Made by a program: the position numbers and the translations under genes. A stretch of 64,000 bases of DNA from the NCBI RefSeq assembly GCF_029266855.1, contig NZ_JAQSWB010000004.1:186001-250000 (forward strand), in the 5' to 3' direction. Within the stretch, counting starts at the first letter, position 1, and each line of letters starts with the position of its first letter. The notes under the pieces were generated by a model that saw nothing but the letters and a program-made list of their open reading frames with translations, was not told where the DNA came from and ran no database searches. Origin of the DNA: Fluviicola sp. (lineage in GTDB: Bacteria; Bacteroidota; Bacteroidia; Flavobacteriales_D; Crocinitomicaceae). Positions 55,769-64,000 of the stretch are shown piece by piece.

Positions 55769-56815
55769 ATGAAAGTATTGGTCGTGGGGTGTGGTGTTGC
55801 CGGAATTTGTTTAGCACATGAATTGCTACAGGCTGATTGTGAGGTACAACTCATCGATAAGGGGCAAAACGTTTCCTCAAGCGTGGCAGCGGGAATCATT
55901 AACCCGATCGTTTTCAGACGCATGACGCTGAGTTGGCGCGTCTCGGAATTCATCCCTTTTGCTTATAACAGATACCGTGAATTGGAACATAAAACAGGCG
56001 TCTCATTTTTTCATCCTTTGGTGATTCGCCGTTTATTTGCCTCAGAACAGGAATTGGAATTTTGGAAGAAAAAACAAAACCTGCCCGAATATTCGGATTA
56101 TATGGAAACGCTCACGAAGGAAGACCTGGAATTCCCTCTTGAACAAAATACCTTTGGCACTGCACGTGTAAAACAGGCTTCTTATATTGATGCCAAAGGT
56201 TTTATACGGGCTAACCGGGATTACTTTCAATCAAAGAACCTGTTGCTGGAAGAGAACTTCAACCACGATGAACTGAACCCCGCAGAAGCTGTTTATAAAG
56301 GAACCAGGTATGATTTCATTGTTTTTGCCGAAGGAAAAGATTCAACTTACAATCCGCTTTTCGGGTATTTACCGCTGCAACAAACAAAGGGTGAAGTACT
56401 GACCATCCGGTCCGAAACAATGTATTCCGATGAATCGTTGAACCGCAAATGTTTTTTACTTCCTTTGGGAAACAATGAATTCAAGGCAGGTTCAACCTAT
56501 GTTTGGAACACGGATGACACCATTCCAACGGAAGAAGGTCTTCAAACAATCACGGAAAATCTAAAATCGATCACTTCCGAACCTTACGAAGTTTTGGAAC
56601 ATAATGCCGGTGTTCGTCCTACTGTTTTAGACCGCAGGCCATTATTGGGTTTACATCCGGAATACCCGAAAATAGCCATCGCGAACGGTTTGGGAGCAAA
56701 AGGATATATGCTTGCCCCGCTTCTGATGAATGAACTGGTACAGCATTTGTTTGAGGGAAAAGAAATTCCCAAAGATTCGCACATCAACAGGTTTGCGTAT
56801 TCTAAGCATTCTTAA
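55769..56815 (+). CDS. FAD-dependent oxidoreductase of the DAO (D-amino-acid oxidase) family
   Basis: 348 residues. The dinucleotide-binding motif 'KVLVVGCGVAGICLAHEL' (GxGxxG) is at residues 2-19, followed by 'VQLIDKG' with the ribose-binding acidic residue and 'SSVAAGIINPIVFRR', typical of DAO and MnmC-like oxidases. The C-terminal 'ANGLGAKGYMLAPLLM' contacts FAD. It should oxidise an amine or amino acid and produce peroxide or pass electrons on; the substrate is unknown. Its last 14 bases overlap the end of the convergent antiporter gene. Confidence 0.85.
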   Translation: MKVLVVGCGVAGICLAHELLQADCEVQLIDKGQNVSSSVAAGIINPIVFRRMTLSWRVSEFIPFAYNRYRELEHKTGVSFFHPLVIRRLFASEQELEFWKKKQNLPEYSDYMETLTKEDLEFPLEQNTFGTARVKQASYIDAKGFIRANRDYFQSKNLLLEENFNHDELNPAEAVYKGTRYDFIVFAEGKDSTYNPLFGYLPLQQTKGEVLTIRSETMYSDESLNRKCFLLPLGNNEFKAGSTYVWNTDDTIPTEEGLQTITENLKSITSEPYEVLEHNAGVRPTVLDRRPLLGLHPEYPKIAIANGLGAKGYMLAPLLMNELVQHLFEGKEIPKDSHINRFAYSKHS

Positions 56816-59024
56816 GAATATCCCGAAGGTAGATACGGATCCGTTTATTTGAACCAACAATCCAAATAACATCATCTGCCTGAAAAGTGATATCGGGATC
56901 CGGATTTACAATGCGTTCATCGTCACGCTCCAACCCGACTACGATTCCTTTGCACATTTCGCGCATCCTGGAATGACGCATTGTTTGACCGATCAAACCG
57001 GAATCTTCCGGAATGGAGAATGAATGCAAACCAACCTGAATAGAATCTGACTTTGGTTCTATTTGTTTTTCCGTAACGGTAATGTAATTTTTAAATGCGG
57101 TCAGCTGCTCATCCGTTCCAATGACCGAAATCACGTCATTCGGATAAAGTATATGGTCTTGCCTCGGAATATTAATCGTAACATCTCCCCGTTCAATAAT
57201 TACGATGTTGACTCCAAATGTTTCGCGCAGTTTCATTGAACTTAAAGGCAGACCGATAATCGGTGAGCGGCCGTCCAGGGTAAAAGTTGTTAAATGAGAA
57301 TCCCAGGGAGCAAGGTAGTTTTTCTCCTTTTGAGCCAGTTCACGCTCGTGAAAATTCAGGAGGAACCTGGATTCGATCTTGCCATAGAATCGCTTGATCC
57401 GGTGTCTTTGTGTAATAAAAAACAAGGCACTTACAAGCACTCCGATTAAGGCTGCAAGCGGTGAATAATAGGTTGCGAAAACAAATCCGACAAAGAAAAT
57501 AGCCAACGCGATGCGGGAAATGATCAGGGCGAGCAACGGACCGCGATAAAGTGGTTTTGTCCAGATATTTGCATAGGTTTGTGAGGGACCACGTCTGAAG
57601 GCAAGTGCGTATAAAAACGGGGCGATCATCAATAAGGTAAGTGTTACGATCAATAGATCTTTCCATTCACTTTCATCGAAAAACGGAGCCAAAAACCGGT
57701 TGGAAAGCAGGATAATACTAACAATGATCACCGAAAAAATAAGCGTGTTGATCAGGTAAAAGCGAATGAGTTTTTTCCAGTCACTCGCCTCGGTAACCTG
57801 CTGTGTTCCCTGACTGTATCTGTACAATCGGTTCTTCCATTTTACCGGCATTTTCACTGTCACCCAATCCGACATTCTCCCGGAAAAACCAATCATATAA
57901 GGTGTTGTAAACGTAGTAATTACCGAAACAGCTACTGCTACCGGGTATAAAAAATCACTGGTTACGCCCAGAGTAACTCCAAGAGTTGCAATAATAAATG
58001 AGAATTCTCCGATTTGCGACAAACTCATCCCGGTTTGTACAGCTACTTTGATCGGCTGACCGGCAAACAGGGCTCCAATCGTTGCGAAGATGGGTTTTCC
58101 GATCAAAAGTACCAGTGTTGAGATTCCGATCGGCAAAGCGTATTCAACCAGCATGTTCGGGTCCAGTAACATCCCTACCGAAACAAAGAAGATCGCTCCG
58201 AACAAATCCTTGACGGATTGAACTAGATGTTCGATTTTTTCCACTTTCGGTGTTTCAGCCAAAATGGAACCCATAATGAATGCTCCCAATGCAGGTGAAA
58301 ATCCGGCCTGAGAAGACAAAACCACCATTAAAAAACAAAGTGCCAGGGAAAGAACAAGCAGTGTTTCATCATTCAGATATCTCTTTAAACGCTTGAACAG
58401 GGTAGGCAGGAAGAAAATCCCCGAAACAAACCACAAGACCAGGAAGAAGATCAGTTTGATAATGGAAAAGATCATCTCTATTCCTTCAAATGAACGGCTA
58501 ATAGAAACAGTAGAAAGGATCACCATCAGTACAACCGCTACCAAATCTTCAATGATCAGAGCACCCAGTACAATTCCGGCAAATTTCTGACTCTTCACTC
58601 CCAGTTCATCAAAAGCACGGAAAATAATTGTTGTGGAAGCAATACTGAGAATCCCACCCATAAACAGGCTGTCCATCATCCCCCAGCCCATGACCACTCC
58701 AACGTTATATCCGATCAGGAAAGTCATCCCAACTCCCATAAGTGAGGTGATCACAGCCACGTTTCCAACCTTCAATAATTTCTTGAAACTGAATTCGAGA
58801 CCAAGACCAAATAAAAGAAATATTACGCCGATTTCTGCCCAGGTTTTAATCCCGTCTGATTCTACAACAGTAGGAAAGAAGTTAAAATACGGCCCGACAA
58901 GAACTCCTGCTATGATGTATCCAAGAACCACCGGCTGACGTAACATTTTGAAAATGATCGTCATCACGGCCGCTGCACCTAAGATCAATGCCAAATCGAT
59001 GATTAACTCCGGAACATGTCCCAT
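56802..59024 (-). CDS. CPA2-family cation:proton antiporter with two TrkA-C domains
   Basis: 740 residues. An N-terminal antiporter domain of about 12-13 helices covers about 1-400, with 'GYIIAGVLVGPY', 'GLGLEFSFKKLLK', 'LGALIIEDLVAVVLMVILS' and 'FVSVGMLLDPNML', as in KefB/CPA2 proteins. A second membrane part with about four segments follows, then two RCK_C (TrkA-C) domains at about 575-740. The usual RCK_N nucleotide-binding domain is absent. It likely exchanges K+ or Na+ for protons at the inner membrane under control of a ligand bound by the C-domains. Confidence 0.88.
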   Translation of the reverse strand: MGHVPELIIDLALILGAAAVMTIIFKMLRQPVVLGYIIAGVLVGPYFNFFPTVVESDGIKTWAEIGVIFLLFGLGLEFSFKKLLKVGNVAVITSLMGVGMTFLIGYNVGVVMGWGMMDSLFMGGILSIASTTIIFRAFDELGVKSQKFAGIVLGALIIEDLVAVVLMVILSTVSISRSFEGIEMIFSIIKLIFFLVLWFVSGIFFLPTLFKRLKRYLNDETLLVLSLALCFLMVVLSSQAGFSPALGAFIMGSILAETPKVEKIEHLVQSVKDLFGAIFFVSVGMLLDPNMLVEYALPIGISTLVLLIGKPIFATIGALFAGQPIKVAVQTGMSLSQIGEFSFIIATLGVTLGVTSDFLYPVAVAVSVITTFTTPYMIGFSGRMSDWVTVKMPVKWKNRLYRYSQGTQQVTEASDWKKLIRFYLINTLIFSVIIVSIILLSNRFLAPFFDESEWKDLLIVTLTLLMIAPFLYALAFRRGPSQTYANIWTKPLYRGPLLALIISRIALAIFFVGFVFATYYSPLAALIGVLVSALFFITQRHRIKRFYGKIESRFLLNFHERELAQKEKNYLAPWDSHLTTFTLDGRSPIIGLPLSSMKLRETFGVNIVIIERGDVTINIPRQDHILYPNDVISVIGTDEQLTAFKNYITVTEKQIEPKSDSIQVGLHSFSIPEDSGLIGQTMRHSRMREMCKGIVVGLERDDERIVNPDPDITFQADDVIWIVGSNKRIRIYLRDILKNA

Positions 59025-59342
59025 GAAAATTGTTTTGCGGTCTAATTAAAAAACCAATTTGTGCTGATTCTTAAAATTAGGAAAAATGCCCTGATTTTGA
59101 ATTAAAAGGAGATTAAAATACTTGAGAATCGGTCGAAACGGTTAAAACGCAGTTAAACTGAATGGACTCAGGATAGTTTTCGTCATTTAATCGTTGCTTT
59201 TATGCACCTTTACCTTCTTGCTCTACGTCATACTAACACATGAATCATACATCTACATTCTTTTTTCAAAAAAAGTTTCTTTTCCATGCAGCGAAAACGG
59301 GTTTTTGTTCTCTATTAAAAAGAACACCCTTAAAATACTGAT
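59025..59342. other. Divergent intergenic region with an inverted repeat
   Basis: This 318-base gap separates the antiporter and the lipoprotein gene. TGTTCT (59306-59311) and AGAACA (59321-59326) form an inverted repeat with a nine-base spacer just before the lipoprotein start, as an operator might. No TAnnTTTG promoter and no open frame are seen. Confidence 0.45.
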
Positions 59343-59981
59343 ATGAAAAGAACACTTTTAATCCCGATTGCCGCTTCTGCTGTGATACTTTTGCTCGCAA
59401 TTGCCTGTAAAAAGAACAACCCGACAGCACCCGTCAATCCATGTCCGGAAGATACTCCTTGTTCGTTCTGTTTCGGTGAAAACCTGGAATTGGGAACTGA
59501 CAACCTGATCATTTCAACAACTTATGCACAGCAGGCTCCCTTCATGCTATACAGTCAAAATGTAGGTTTAAGTCCATTGTTAAGCGAAACCCCTACCGGT
59601 TTCTACGGTGCCCAGGGCGGCGTTTCAATAGCGTTCAACAGTGCAAACATGCTTGCCTGTGTTTCCAACAAAATCACTTTTGTACATGGCCGTATGTCAA
59701 ACAATACAAATCCTTTCCCGGAATTGGTGAATGTACAGTTTCCCGGAACTCCTCTGATCACTACCGTCCCGGATTCCCTGAATTACTTTTTAAATCCTTA
59801 TGGCTACACCGTGGAGCGCTACTTCCAACCGGGTTTGGTCTGGATGTCTCAGAACCCCGGGGATAATTTTATAGGAGTGGTCGATTCGATCATCATCCGC
59901 GGACCTGAATTTGAAACCGTAACGGTCGGTGCAAACTTGTTTGAATCGGAATTACGCAGTATTTGTGTTGCACATGAATAA
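59343..59981 (+). CDS. Lipoprotein of unknown function
   Basis: 212 residues. Lipobox 'LLAIAC' with Cys near residue 22, then 'KKNNPTAPVNPCPEDTPCSFCFGENLE', which holds three cysteines in a CxxxxxCxxC spacing. The rest is beta-rich, with 'NKITFVHGRMSNN' and 'VDSIIIRGPEFETVTVGANLFESEL', and could be a small carbohydrate-binding-like domain. I do not recognise the family. It lies 63 bases upstream of the ECF sigma gene in the same direction and could belong to the same transcript, possibly as a target or ligand-sensing partner. Confidence 0.62.
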   Translation: MKRTLLIPIAASAVILLLAIACKKNNPTAPVNPCPEDTPCSFCFGENLELGTDNLIISTTYAQQAPFMLYSQNVGLSPLLSETPTGFYGAQGGVSIAFNSANMLACVSNKITFVHGRMSNNTNPFPELVNVQFPGTPLITTVPDSLNYFLNPYGYTVERYFQPGLVWMSQNPGDNFIGVVDSIIIRGPEFETVTVGANLFESELRSICVAHE

Positions 59982-60044
59982 TTAACCTTTTTAATACACC
60001 TCAGGGAAGTCCGCCACAGCGAACCTCTCTTTTTACCAGTTCTA

Positions 60045-60587
60045 TTGAAATTCAGTTCTATCCATATAGCCCTTGATGCCTTTCGGGATTCTCTTGATCC
60101 CAAAGCGTTCAATGCTATTTATAAAATGCTGTCGCCTAAACTTTACTATGTGTGTCTCCGTTACCTGAAAAACGATGCGGATGCACAGGATGCGCTCCAG
60201 GAAACCTTTGTTACAGCTTATCGAAAAATAGACTCTTTCCAGGGCCAGGGGAGCTTTGAAGGCTGGATTCGCAGGATTGCTGTAAACACGTGTTTAGCTA
60301 AACTTCGAATTGATAAAAAGCAGTTTGAACAGGAGGATTACGACCTGGATAAGGCGCGAATTCTGCCGGAAGAAGAAGAGTATCTTCAAAAAGAAGAAAC
60401 GGAAGCCAGGTTACTCCTTGCATTAAAGGAATTGCCGGACGGATACCGGACCATTATTAATCTCGCTATTCTGGAAGATTATTCTCACCGTGAGATAGGT
60501 GAATTACTGAATATCACGGAAAGTACTTCCCGCTCGCAATTAACCAGGGCAAAAGCTGCATTGAAACTTAAACTGGAACAAAGATGA
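60045..60587 (+). CDS. ECF-type RNA polymerase sigma factor
   Basis: 180 residues from a TTG at 60045-60047. The first in-frame ATG (residue 28) would cut into region 2, and no ATG lies closer upstream in frame, so the TTG is preferred. Region 2 is 'LYYVCLRYLKNDADAQDALQETFVTAYRKI...FEGWIRRIAVNTCL', and region 4 is 'LLLALKELPDGYRTIINLAILEDYSHREIGELL' followed by the helix-turn-helix. It should direct polymerase to envelope- or stress-related promoters. Its stop overlaps the ATG of the next gene in ATGA, the usual sign of a sigma/anti-sigma pair. Confidence 0.9.
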   Translation: MKFSSIHIALDAFRDSLDPKAFNAIYKMLSPKLYYVCLRYLKNDADAQDALQETFVTAYRKIDSFQGQGSFEGWIRRIAVNTCLAKLRIDKKQFEQEDYDLDKARILPEEEEYLQKEETEARLLLALKELPDGYRTIINLAILEDYSHREIGELLNITESTSRSQLTRAKAALKLKLEQR

Positions 60588-62065
60588 AAAACAGCGAACA
60601 TAAACAGTTGGATCAACTTCTGAAGGATAAATTATCCGATGGAACAGCATCTGTTCCTGATTTCGTATGGGACAGAATTGAAGAAGAGCTTTTCCCCGAA
60701 AAGAAGAGACGTGGTTTCTTCTGGTGGTTTTTCAGCGGACTGTGCCTGGTGGTAATCGGTGGTCTGTTAGGGGTCGCTTTCTCCGGTCAAAAAACTCATT
60801 CTCAAAATACTTCTCTTTCAAATAATTCTGTTCCGGAACAATTAAATACTCCCGTTTTAAGAACGCAGCATTCAATGCGCAAGAATAAATTTATAACTCT
60901 GAATCCCGCTAAAACAAAGGGTAGTTTGTCCGCCGCGGCGGACGAACATGCAACCAAAGCAGGCAAATACTTTGATTCCAATCCCGATAGCTATCGGAAT
61001 GCAACTAAAACAAGCAAACACTCCGATTCCCCCCACCATACCTATCAGAATACCAATCTCCGGCAAAAAAAGTCCGGATCCTCACTAAAAAAACAGTCCG
61101 GATCCCAAACAAAGTCTGTCTCCTCTAATTCCGGAAAATTGCTTTCTGAAAAAACACAAACTGACCCACTGCAACCTTCGAATGGAAAGCAGGAATCCCT
61201 CAACAACCGGTCCACTGACCAAAATTCAACTGATCCGGCTACTCATTCAACTTCTGAAAATCAAGCAACGCAGGCAAAAGCCGAATCTGCAATAAAAGCC
61301 GATTCAATAAGCAGGAAAGAATTGAGCTATGCCGAAATACTGGATTTGGTCAAACGCGATTTTTCTAATAATCCGGATGAATTGGATGAGAACAAAAAGA
61401 ATTCATTGTTCTCTCTGGGGATTTATGGAGGACCGTCACTGTATAATACTGCTGCTTTTAAAGATTATTTCTCTTCCGGACAATTGAGTAAGCGCACCTT
61501 TGCTTCTTCGGGATTTGAACTTGGATTGCATGCCCGTTTCAAAATCGGGAATCGTTTCCGGATTTACGCCGGTTTGGCTTTCAACCAAAAACAAACGCAA
61601 TTCAATTACAATTTGGCCATTACCGAATTCGATTACTTCACTTATCTTGTGAATGGAGAAAAAGTGCCCCTGGCAAATATCCGGGATGACGGAGCAAACA
61701 GTTGCTTCCTGGCAAAAGATGTCCTGGTTCGTTACCAAATACAATCGGCTTTAATTTCTTTGGGAACACAATTTGAATTTCTTAAAATGGGAAGATTCTC
61801 TGCAGCAGCTGATCTCAGACTTTCCTGCAATATTTACTCATCGCTCAAACTCAAAGAAACAAGGGTTCTGGATATTCAAAAGCCAAATTCGGAGAACTTC
61901 AGTTACTTCCAACCGGGAGCTGGCCTACTCTTAAATTATGAGATAAACAGCTGGATCTCTGTCGGATTATCGCCGTTCTTCAGTAAACAATTCTATTTAA
62001 AGGAATCGTCTTCACGAAAGATGGATGAGTTGGTAATTCCGGTAACTGTTTCGTTTAATTTATAA
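60584..62065 (+). CDS. Membrane-anchored putative anti-sigma protein with long linker and C-terminal beta-barrel-like domain
   Basis: 493 residues in four parts. An N-terminal cytoplasmic helix-rich piece (1-43, 'VWDRIEEELFPEKKRR') is followed by one membrane segment (about 44-67, 'GFFWWFFSGLCLVVIGGLLG') and a Ser/Thr/Gln/Lys-rich linker (about 68-270). The last part, about 275-493, has amphipathic strands like an outer-membrane barrel ('FELGLHARFKIGNRFRIYAG', 'SFNL' end). Position after the sigma gene suggests that part one binds sigma. The linker is long enough to cross the periplasm, so the chain might span both membranes. The linker DNA holds two palindromes and a 51-base tandem repeat. 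Confidence 0.72.
   Translation: MKNSEHKQLDQLLKDKLSDGTASVPDFVWDRIEEELFPEKKRRGFFWWFFSGLCLVVIGGLLGVAFSGQKTHSQNTSLSNNSVPEQLNTPVLRTQHSMRKNKFITLNPAKTKGSLSAAADEHATKAGKYFDSNPDSYRNATKTSKHSDSPHHTYQNTNLRQKKSGSSLKKQSGSQTKSVSSNSGKLLSEKTQTDPLQPSNGKQESLNNRSTDQNSTDPATHSTSENQATQAKAESAIKADSISRKELSYAEILDLVKRDFSNNPDELDENKKNSLFSLGIYGGPSLYNTAAFKDYFSSGQLSKRTFASSGFELGLHARFKIGNRFRIYAGLAFNQKQTQFNYNLAITEFDYFTYLVNGEKVPLANIRDDGANSCFLAKDVLVRYQIQSALISLGTQFEFLKMGRFSAAADLRLSCNIYSSLKLKETRVLDIQKPNSENFSYFQPGAGLLLNYEINSWISVGLSPFFSKQFYLKESSSRKMDELVIPVTVSFNL
60928..61050. repeat. Palindromes and 51-bp tandem repeat inside the linker coding region
   Basis: GTCCGCCGCGGCGGAC (60928-60943) and CCGATAGCTATCGG (60984-60997) are perfect palindromes of types dispersed in Bacteroidota genomes. 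Each precedes a copy of a repeat beginning ATGCAAC (60948 and 60999, period 51 bases). The copies encode similar runs, HATKAGKYFDS and NATKTSKHSDS, so the frame is kept. Confidence 0.75.
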
Positions 62066-62111
62066 ACCGAACACCCTTTTTTTCAGCATCGTGTGAAAGA
62101 AAATTGGGGAA

Positions 62112-62150
62112 AAGAGCATCTGTTATCAGCGGATGCTCTTTTTTATTTTC
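62112..62150 (+). terminator. Terminator of the ECF sigma operon
   Basis: AAGAGCATC (62112-62120) pairs with GATGCTCTT (62132-62140) and is followed by TTTTATTTTC. It lies 46 bases after the stop codon of the regulator gene. Confidence 0.88.
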
Positions 62151-62208
62151 AAGCTGCCCGGGATTCGATTTTTGTTTTAACTTAGTCGCAACTTAAAAAA
62201 CACTATTC

Positions 62209-63660
62209 ATGAAAAAGAACTCTTTAACCCTTTTCTTAGGGGGAGTAACTGTTATTGGTTTAGCAGTACTCACCAATTGCACTTCCGGAACGGATACCGA
62301 GGTCGAAAGTGGCTACGAAACCAGCAGTTCACCCGATTCACTTTGTTTGGTAGATCCAAGCTGGTTCCCCCACAGTCAGACACCCGCACCCCAGGAAGGA
62401 CCCGGAAGTCCCTTCGACACTTCAAGCACAACCAATCAGATTTTTCACCAATGGTCCTGGAACAAATTCCTATGGCTCACTAAACCGGATCAGGGCGGAA
62501 ATCCTTTATTCCTAAATCAAAGCAAAGTGCAACAGGTTACTTCTCACATGGCAACTGTGAATATCCCGAGCGGAGCAATGGTTGTACTTCAGGATACAGC
62601 CCAGGCCGGATCGGAAAGTGCCGTATTGCAAACAAACCCGGATTACAATAACGGAACCGGCGCAATGGTTTATTATTCGATCCACATGAATCCGCTGATG
62701 TATAATGCAGGTCTTAATTTCGCATCCATGATTAAGAACGGTCAATTACCAGCTACCAATGAGGCTTCATTCCCTGTTGGTTCGTTTGAATTAAAGGTTG
62801 CGTGGGTCCCTCTTTCAGCAATTCCTGCTGCGAAACAATCGGAGTATTACACAACGACCGCATCGCTCTCTACAAACAATGGAGCATCTTTCACAAATAC
62901 ACAGGTTGCATTAATTGGAATGCACGTCGTTGGTGTTGTTCAAAATCACCCTGAATTCATTTGGGCAACATTTGAACACGATGATCTGTCTCCGGATTAC
63001 AACTGGGAAGCCAATTCTGCAAGTTCCGCTACTGATCAGCTTTTGTTCAAAAATGGAACTGTAAGCGGCCTTAACGGAATTTTGTATGACAGCGATACAG
63101 AATTAGGAGAAACTCCTTACCAGGTATACGATTTGTTTCAATATGGAATTCCGCGCAATTCGGATGGTACATTCATGAATACTTCGCAATCGGAACCCGC
63201 AGATTTTCAGAATGTAGATGGGATTAATCAATGTGTGAAATCGCAATTGGATGATGTATGGGCTAATTATTTTTACAACGGATCTATCTGGCTGAACACG
63301 GATGGTAAAACTCCATTGCAGCAGGCACAACTGATCGATAGTCTAGCGGGAAATATAAGCAATGCAACTCCGGGAAGCTTTGCCCGTGGTAGTTTGAATT
63401 GTGCCAATGTTACAATGGAAACTTTCACCCAAACATTTGAAACCAGCATGAGCGGGATCAATGCGGGTAATTTGGCGAATTGTTTCTCCTGCCACAGTGG
63501 TCAGTCCTTTTCTTATAATGGTGACAGTTTATCACCGGTTTATCTGAGCCACACTTTCCAGGAATATTTACTTGAACAGCAGGGAAGTTCCTTTAAGAAG
63601 GCTGAAAGCATCAAGTCCAAAGCAGAACAACGCGTGCTGAAACGTATGCAGAAAAAATAG
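62209..63660 (+). CDS. Lipoprotein with a single c-type heme motif
   Basis: 483 residues. Lipobox 'VLTNC' with Cys near residue 24. The central part is beta-rich and Trp/Asn-rich ('NQIFHQWSWNKFLWLTKPD', 'HVVGVVQNHPEFIWATFEHDD'). Near the C-terminus, 'NAGNLANCFSCHSGQSFS' gives one CxxCH heme-attachment motif (C425, C428, H429). This fits a membrane-attached monoheme protein on the periplasmic or outer face. I recall uncharacterised proteins with the 'WSWNKFLWL' run in other bacteria but know no assigned function. It follows the ECF operon terminator, so it is a separate transcript, and has its own terminator. Confidence 0.68.
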   Translation: MKKNSLTLFLGGVTVIGLAVLTNCTSGTDTEVESGYETSSSPDSLCLVDPSWFPHSQTPAPQEGPGSPFDTSSTTNQIFHQWSWNKFLWLTKPDQGGNPLFLNQSKVQQVTSHMATVNIPSGAMVVLQDTAQAGSESAVLQTNPDYNNGTGAMVYYSIHMNPLMYNAGLNFASMIKNGQLPATNEASFPVGSFELKVAWVPLSAIPAAKQSEYYTTTASLSTNNGASFTNTQVALIGMHVVGVVQNHPEFIWATFEHDDLSPDYNWEANSASSATDQLLFKNGTVSGLNGILYDSDTELGETPYQVYDLFQYGIPRNSDGTFMNTSQSEPADFQNVDGINQCVKSQLDDVWANYFYNGSIWLNTDGKTPLQQAQLIDSLAGNISNATPGSFARGSLNCANVTMETFTQTFETSMSGINAGNLANCFSCHSGQSFSYNGDSLSPVYLSHTFQEYLLEQQGSSFKKAESIKSKAEQRVLKRMQKK

Positions 63661-63673
63661 TTTGAAAACAGTA

Positions 63674-63706
63674 AAAAGCCGGGAGAAATTCTTCCGGCTT
63701 TTCTAT
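63674..63706 (+). terminator. Terminator of the heme-motif lipoprotein gene
   Basis: AAAAGCCGG (63674-63682) and CCGGCTTTT (63694-63702) form a nine-base stem, followed by CTATTT. It is 13 bases after the stop codon and may also serve the convergent gene at the right edge. Confidence 0.82.
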
Positions 63707-63756
63707 TTAATAAGTTAATTTCCTCCTTCATTGCAAGCAAAGGAAAGGGTTAAATA

Positions 63757-64000
63757 TTACTTCACTATCCCATTTCCGGGTGCAACTTTCTTGAAATTCA
63801 GATTCTGCACTCCTTCTGTGTTCTTCACTTTCTCGAAACGGAATACTTCATTACTCACAACCCGCTGGAGACAGATTTCGATCATGGTCGTTGAGTTTGG
63901 CTGTAAGGCCTTTTCAAACAATTCTTTCGAAGCTTCAATTTCACAAGGCAAATAACGAATGAATCCATCCTCAGGTCTTGGGCGAATAATCAATCCCAAC
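63757..64000 (-). CDS. Partial gene at the right edge, product unknown
   Basis: An open minus-strand frame runs from the window edge to a TAA at 63757-63759, giving at least 80 C-terminal residues. The visible part has 'GFIRYLPCEIEASKELFEKAL', 'TTMIEICLQRVVSNEVFRFEK' and ends in 'KVAPGNGIVK'. No motif is recognised. The start lies beyond the window; the TTG at 63997-63999 is probably an internal Leu codon. Coding character is moderate, and the stop codon is close to a terminator, as expected for a real gene. Confidence 0.5.
   Translation of the reverse strand, partial: LGLIIRPRPEDGFIRYLPCEIEASKELFEKALQPNSTTMIEICLQRVVSNEVFRFEKVKNTEGVQNLNFKKVAPGNGIVK

Follow-up and report, generated by a model that had tools for sequence, protein, structure and literature searches.

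A lipoprotein–ECF sigma–Dma-type anti-sigma unit predicted in Fluviicola, with a regulator that may reach from the cytoplasm to the outer membrane

The gene cluster described here very probably forms a unit made of a lipoprotein, an ECF sigma factor and an anti-sigma factor of the Dma type. It lies in a stretch of 64,000 nucleotides from Fluviicola sp. (contig NZ_JAQSWB010000004.1, positions 186,001 to 250,000), hereafter called the window, and positions are counted from its first letter. The features considered are the following:

59203..59232, + strand: putative ECF-type promoter, TGCACC-N17-CGTCATA, upstream of the lipoprotein gene and conserved in cassettes
59285..59329, + strand: conserved leader element, CATGCAGCGAAA...TTTTTGTT.TCTA..AAAA.AACAC, from the upstream alignment
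59343..59981, + strand: lipoprotein gene (212 aa, lipobox LAIAC, Cys22), from the ORF list
60045..60587, + strand: ECF sigma factor gene (180 aa, TTG start), with Pfam regions 2 and 4
60584..62065, + strand: Dma-like anti-sigma factor gene (493 aa), from ORF, Pfam, profile and gene order in relatives
60584..60712, + strand: residues 1-43, putative cytoplasmic sigma-binding part, with PxxxWxxIExxL and KK(R/K)R before the helix
60713..60787, + strand: residues 44-68, single inner-membrane helix, from hydropathy
60788..61312, + strand: residues 69-243, low-complexity linker, presumably periplasmic, from composition and variable sequence
61313..61399, + strand: residues 244-272, helix-like segment LSYAEILxLV..DF, conserved in alignment A2 and preceding the predicted barrel
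61400..62062, + strand: residues 273-493, predicted 8-strand outer-membrane barrel, from PF13568, an outer-membrane protein (OMP) profile, strand alternation and alignment A8

The three ORFs that an earlier note had described (a lipoprotein, a sigma factor and an overlapping gene for a 493-aa protein) are all present, and the latter two overlap by 4 bases. The sigma protein matches Sigma70_r2 (63.8 bits) and Sigma70_r4_2 (53.7 bits) in Pfam, both above the cut-off. Its TTG start, within TTGAA(A/G)TTC, is kept in 6/6 aligned cassettes, the window among them; the seventh cassette, L067, was left out of this alignment. Recurrence of the same gene order in relatives indicates that the order is more than chance. 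Downstream of the 493-aa gene, positions 62209-63660 hold a lipoprotein-like gene with a CFSCH motif, and at three other loci (L062, L063 and L064) the same place is taken by an ORF that begins similarly, as judged from its first 45 residues.

The domain order proposed for the 493-aa protein, a short N-terminus followed by one helix, a low-complexity linker and a C-terminal domain, was found as described. Residues 1-43 are charged and end in KKRR. The motif PxxxWxxIExxL plus KK(R/K)R emerged from an alignment of 19 sequences (A5), and W29 is almost invariant in another of 54 (A6). In the linker, S/T/N/Q/K/D/E/H/P/R account for 76% of residues and I/L/V/F/W/Y/M/C for 13%; its sequence varies among relatives while the adjoining helix-like segment is conserved (alignment A2, n=3). 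The low complexity noted earlier is borne out, and the length, given as about 200 residues, is reduced to about 175 for the linker proper, after which comes the conserved helix-like piece. These traits recall those of Dma proteins: hydropathy and the common motif suggest an N-terminal anti-sigma part with one transmembrane helix, composition and sequence variability point to a long disordered tether (175 residues), and an ECF sigma gene is adjacent, both here, with its 4-base overlap, and in 80/80 fetched relatives. No FecR domain was detected in the protein by Pfam or NCBIfam, nor is there a receptor-sized barrel among the ORFs listed for 56000-64000.

The C-terminal domain is probably an 8-strand outer-membrane barrel, a reading favoured over a soluble fold by several sequence comparisons. 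The Pfam family OMP_b-brl_2 (PF13568) matches the protein with 24 bits and E 4.7e-5, under the cut-off of 27. When a profile of 7 orthologous C-termini (alignment A8, one member being shortened by a contig end) was compared by hhalign with 7 OMPs of the same genome, the result was 89.8% (E 1.8e-6, 183 columns). Control profiles gave 0.35% (lipoprotein), 0.09% (CHU_C, 2 sequences) and 0.08% (sigma). Speaking against a barrel, two Dma-like sets of another, flavobacterial, family gave only 48.5% and 1.4% with the C-terminal profile of the window. The OMP set was taken from 20 own-genome matches to PF13568, of which 8 stretches were fetched; L207 was omitted, as was the second ORF of L201, which is cut; six proteins were read from the signal peptide and L208 as a partial stretch. 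Strand alternation in the C-terminal domain reached z 3.46, a value attained by 0/1000 shuffles, and the seven OMPs gave z 1.17-3.29 (300 shuffles each). Control values were 0.31 for part of the linker (residues 70-240), 0.69 for sigma and -0.51 for the lipoprotein. A point against the barrel is that, among the seven orthologs, alternation was lowest in the two that are most distant (z 1.94 and 1.42). In small outer-membrane barrels, short turns alternate with longer loops, and strand limits drawn by eye in the C-terminal domain yield loops of 23, 35, 16 and 10 residues alternating with turns of 2, 3 and 1. The long loops 288-310 and 345-379 are rich in invariant residues (alignment A8), which would place a conserved surface outside the cell.

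An alternative is that the C-terminal part folds as a soluble beta domain in the periplasm, which would make the protein a conventional anti-sigma factor of one membrane whose linker happens to be long. It may draw on the Pfam score under the cut-off, on the lack of a confident structure model (AlphaFold with 3 sequences gave pLDDT 35.9 and no usable model) and on the 27/80 relatives that are short and lack any barrel match in Pfam. Against it stand the profile match to OMPs while controls stay low, the strand alternation score, and the three turns of 1-3 residues that alternate, by eye, with loops of 10-35. On balance we consider a soluble domain very unlikely. A search of solved structures with the 7-member profile returned a single match, an unrelated OCP-domain entry with E 1.1. 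Because the AlphaFold model was unusable and no solved structure matched, we infer the outer-membrane barrel from the sequence comparisons above.

A search for the same arrangement beside ECF genes of other genomes had been suggested in the earlier note. A whole-protein search of 59 genomes, own one included, found 27 matches in 19 of them, many via the N-terminal part alone, and an ECF sigma gene lies directly before all 27 (24 detected by script; the other 3, L010, L014 and L015, which the script had overlooked or misread, on larger stretches). Two named loci from Flavobacteriales MAGs (L036 and L037) were taken as copies of G007 and G001 and counted once. A profile built from 19 rows of the N-terminal module was then searched in the window's own phylum, with at most 23 candidates scored in most genomes, and matched 66/247 sampled genomes; the weakest matches include one with internal stops. 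The window's class accounts for 58 of the 66, and 8 are outside it, which implies sample rates of 58/61 and 8/186, respectively, with three unmatched class genomes placed ahead of the rest, if the kinship listing order is complete.

An ECF sigma gene lies just before the N-terminal module in 80/80 best non-own sites. By length, 27 of these are short forms (176-317 aa) and 53 are long (351-895 aa). Among the long forms, window included (n=54), 28 match PF13568 and 14 match PF13505, two sets that may overlap; as points against the barrel reading, 26/54 lack a PF13568 match at E 0.01, and 3/10 long relatives scanned singly lack any Pfam match. No short form (0/27) matches a Pfam barrel family. 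The linker was estimated at 90-318 residues (median 197) in 23/53 long forms, those passing a C-terminal-residue filter, with the head assumed to be 225 residues. Given sigma pairing at 80/80 sites and short forms that lack a barrel match, the sigma-coupled scaffold is widespread without always including a barrel; that 27/80 relatives are short forms of this kind also indicates that the scaffold can function without one. Examples of such short loci are L109, L144 and L159, where the same N-terminal module again follows an ECF sigma gene. Plug and von Willebrand domains were seen in proteins encoded next to sigma genes at L154:56-2740 and L155:2798-5110, the one at L155 having a type IX sorting tail besides. 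One chain that connects a sigma factor in the cytoplasm with the outer membrane, as the earlier note proposed, is the best-supported reading, considering the sub-threshold Pfam match, the OMP profile, strand alternation and sigma pairing in 27/27 near relatives and 80/80 phylum sites.

The genome of the window has 25 sigma-region hits, and the neighbourhoods read were the window and 24 others. Five Dma-like genes were found behind sigma genes: that of the window and those at L046, L052, L054 and L059. Only L059 has a Pfam barrel match above the cut-off, and L054 has a weak one (E 0.017). The N-terminal profile finds four of the five (not L054) plus L044, in which Pfam detects no barrel. Two other sigma-adjacent anchored proteins were observed:
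(i). At L041:3476-4408 (G000:C5), a membrane-anchored protein has a C-terminal CHU_C type IX secretion domain (42.3 bits, above the cut-off). It is a predicted anchored chain that carries a surface-export signal. No description of an anti-sigma factor with a type IX secretion system domain was found in a limited search of the open-licence literature; in one published study (PMC7712824), a CTD protein reportedly acts on PorXY-SigP signalling.
(ii). At L060:1427-2794 (G000:C10), the anchored protein has an FGE-sulfatase-like domain (96.2 bits).

The lipoprotein encoded upstream had been suggested as a third component. It has no match in Pfam or NCBIfam, and AlphaFold (3 sequences) gave an unusable model (pLDDT 30.2). 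It precedes the sigma gene in the window and in 6/6 orthologous cassettes, five from the same genus and one from a different genus within the family. The four cassettes nearest to the window resemble it more in this lipoprotein (82, 78, 77 and 72%) than in the anti-sigma protein (69, 63, 56 and 48%). When ten relative loci were compared, the orthologous cassette L067 gave a lipoprotein match of 41% over 133 residues and L071 a weak match over 63 residues; no match was obtained in L068, L069 or L070. The family is narrow, being found in 1/198 sampled genomes of the class, which is the own one. There, a second copy (L183, G000:C3:279565-280164) matches at 51% and has a similar leader element; no sigma gene was seen among the ORFs within about 1.5 kb of this paralog, nor any sigma-region hit.

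Lipoprotein genes of other kinds were surveyed with a lipobox script. In the raw output, a lipoprotein precedes 25/53 long and 1/27 short forms (Fisher P 3.9e-5). When split by family, with L154 and L169 dropped by eye as ordinary signal peptides, the figures are 22/27 long and 0/10 short forms in family f17, and only 2/26 long forms outside f17. Independence of the f17 loci cannot be assumed, 14 of the lipoproteins being members of one family. Among 20 further loci, L016-L035, which come from the same family and order as the window and have 1.5 kb of flank, the script found a lipoprotein in 2, L026 and L027; L026 is the same site as L102, and the lipoprotein of L018 was added by eye. Of the own-genome Dma-like loci, L046 (script) and L054 (by eye) have one upstream, and none was seen at L052 and L059. 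Clustering by BLAST at E 1e-3, with the window and L046 in and L154 and L169 out, yields eleven groups that fill the slot before sigma; at other loci the same pre-sigma slot is occupied by lipoproteins without BLAST similarity. Nine upstream proteins (eight lipoproteins and one secreted) have Pfam matches that are diverse, weak or absent, and neither they nor the window lipoprotein match NigD. At L102 (G043), the lipoprotein before the sigma-Dma pair has a GCFWC motif, which we take to resemble MsrA. A related small secreted protein without a lipobox precedes sigma at L123, L126, L130, L132 and L133.

Upstream of the lipoprotein gene, CGTC(A/C)TA occurs in 6/6 aligned upstream regions (of the seven cassettes), and a TGC(A/G)C(C/A) box lies 17 bases before it in 5/6, L066 being different. 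CGTC presumably is the ECF -10 element, and we assume that the CGTC(A/C)TA pattern fits an ECF promoter. The pattern, which was derived from the window itself, has 1 match there and 0 in 100 shuffles. Its strict form has 2 matches in the genome, the other one inside an opposite-strand ORF, so that no wider regulon was found with it. An ECF-type promoter in this position would make the unit autoregulated. The leader element follows, with CATGCAGCGAAA invariant in 6/6 upstream regions, and a stretch resembling it is found before the gene of the lipoprotein paralog. By itself, the element is not rare: with one mismatch allowed, it is present in 34/100 shuffles of the window. A copy before the sigma gene was considered and rejected, as it is not kept in orthologs.

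These data bear on the possibility that the lipoprotein is an unrelated neighbour, sharing the stretch by chance. The 51% paralog at G000:C3:279565, with no sigma gene nearby, would agree with that explanation, as would the scarcity of lipoprotein genes outside f17 (2/26 long forms). We consider it rather unlikely, however, because the lipoprotein is present in the window and in all six orthologous cassettes, the candidate promoter precedes its gene, and BLAST-unrelated lipoproteins are found in the same slot elsewhere. The suggestion of a third component is strengthened by the linkage seen in the orthologous cassettes and in f17, but most other long-form loci examined have no lipoprotein gene in that place. 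The lipoprotein might serve the response as an effector, or it might work with the barrel as its partner. No description of a lipoprotein-sigma-Dma triad was found in the open-licence literature, where no query was aimed at the triad by name.

A plausible operation of the unit can be outlined. Residues 1-43 would keep sigma bound at the inner membrane, where one helix would anchor the chain; the disordered linker would span the periplasm and, as several sequence tests suggest, the C-terminal 8-strand barrel would sit in the outer membrane with its conserved loops facing out. A change in the outer membrane, either in barrel assembly or in loop binding, might cause the chain to be loosened or cleaved, thereby freeing sigma. 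The freed sigma factor would then transcribe its own unit from the promoter before the lipoprotein gene. Some FecR-type regulators activate or chaperone sigma, and the sign of regulation cannot be read from sequence; the 493-aa protein might accordingly be an activator or chaperone rather than an inhibitor. Such a role is, however, highly improbable in view of published phenotypes. In Bacteroides thetaiotaomicron, PMC13088901 describes dma1 loss as relieving das1 repression, and the phenotype of dma2 deletion requires the cognate sigma gene das2. In Phocaeicola vulgatus, the regulon becomes active when the anti-sigma factor is lost (PMC9308784).

A broader reading, which we regard as possible yet doubtful, is that the Flavobacteriales Dma chain belongs to a device with three components. 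A lipoprotein of the outer membrane, exchangeable among unrelated families, would dock on the barrel or report to it and set sigma release, and the anti-sigma scaffold would be a general platform with a swappable outer head: a barrel, a type IX secretion C-terminal domain, an FGE-like domain or none. With the inhibitory Dma-type unit as the preferred reading, a plan of signalling known from work on a few Bacteroidales of the gut would be extended to a genus of Flavobacteriales. Most of the class genomes sampled contain the N-terminal module together with its sigma gene, whether a barrel is present or not. Lipoprotein linkage provides a concrete candidate for the signal or effector of Dma-type systems, and the short and alternative-head forms are natural controls for the contribution of the barrel.

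In relays of the FecA/FecR/FecI type, a TonB receptor works with a distinct regulator in the inner membrane to signal to an ECF sigma factor. The window system would likewise inform such a sigma factor about the outer membrane; in contrast, it would consist of one chain, in which no FecR match was found. Pfam includes NigD models, and the upstream lipoprotein, lacking any Pfam match, has none to these either; NigD genes go up under toxin treatment (PMC9308784). The closest likeness is with the Dma family, whose sigma partners belong to class ECF21 and which is limited to Bacteroidota. Dma proteins have an N-terminal anti-sigma part, one helix, a long disordered tether and a C-terminal barrel, as stated in PMC13088901, which cites a PNAS 2024 paper as the founding one. 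Dma1/Dma2 and Das1/Das2 of B. thetaiotaomicron share with the window the order of parts as predicted here, the adjacent ECF sigma gene and the phylum Bacteroidota; the window belongs to another genus and order (Flavobacteriales), and its likeness to Dma1-3 is one of part order. The P. vulgatus pair M0N98_03760/03761 likewise has a large anti-sigma factor behind its sigma gene, predicted to span the periplasm and to end in a C-terminal outer-membrane barrel; as a feature of its own, the pair has a sigma gene that goes up under the toxin BcpT (PMC9308784). Since both PMC13088901 and PMC9308784 describe the same plan, the reading in the earlier note is sound and not new: it had already been made for the Dma family and for P. 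vulgatus.
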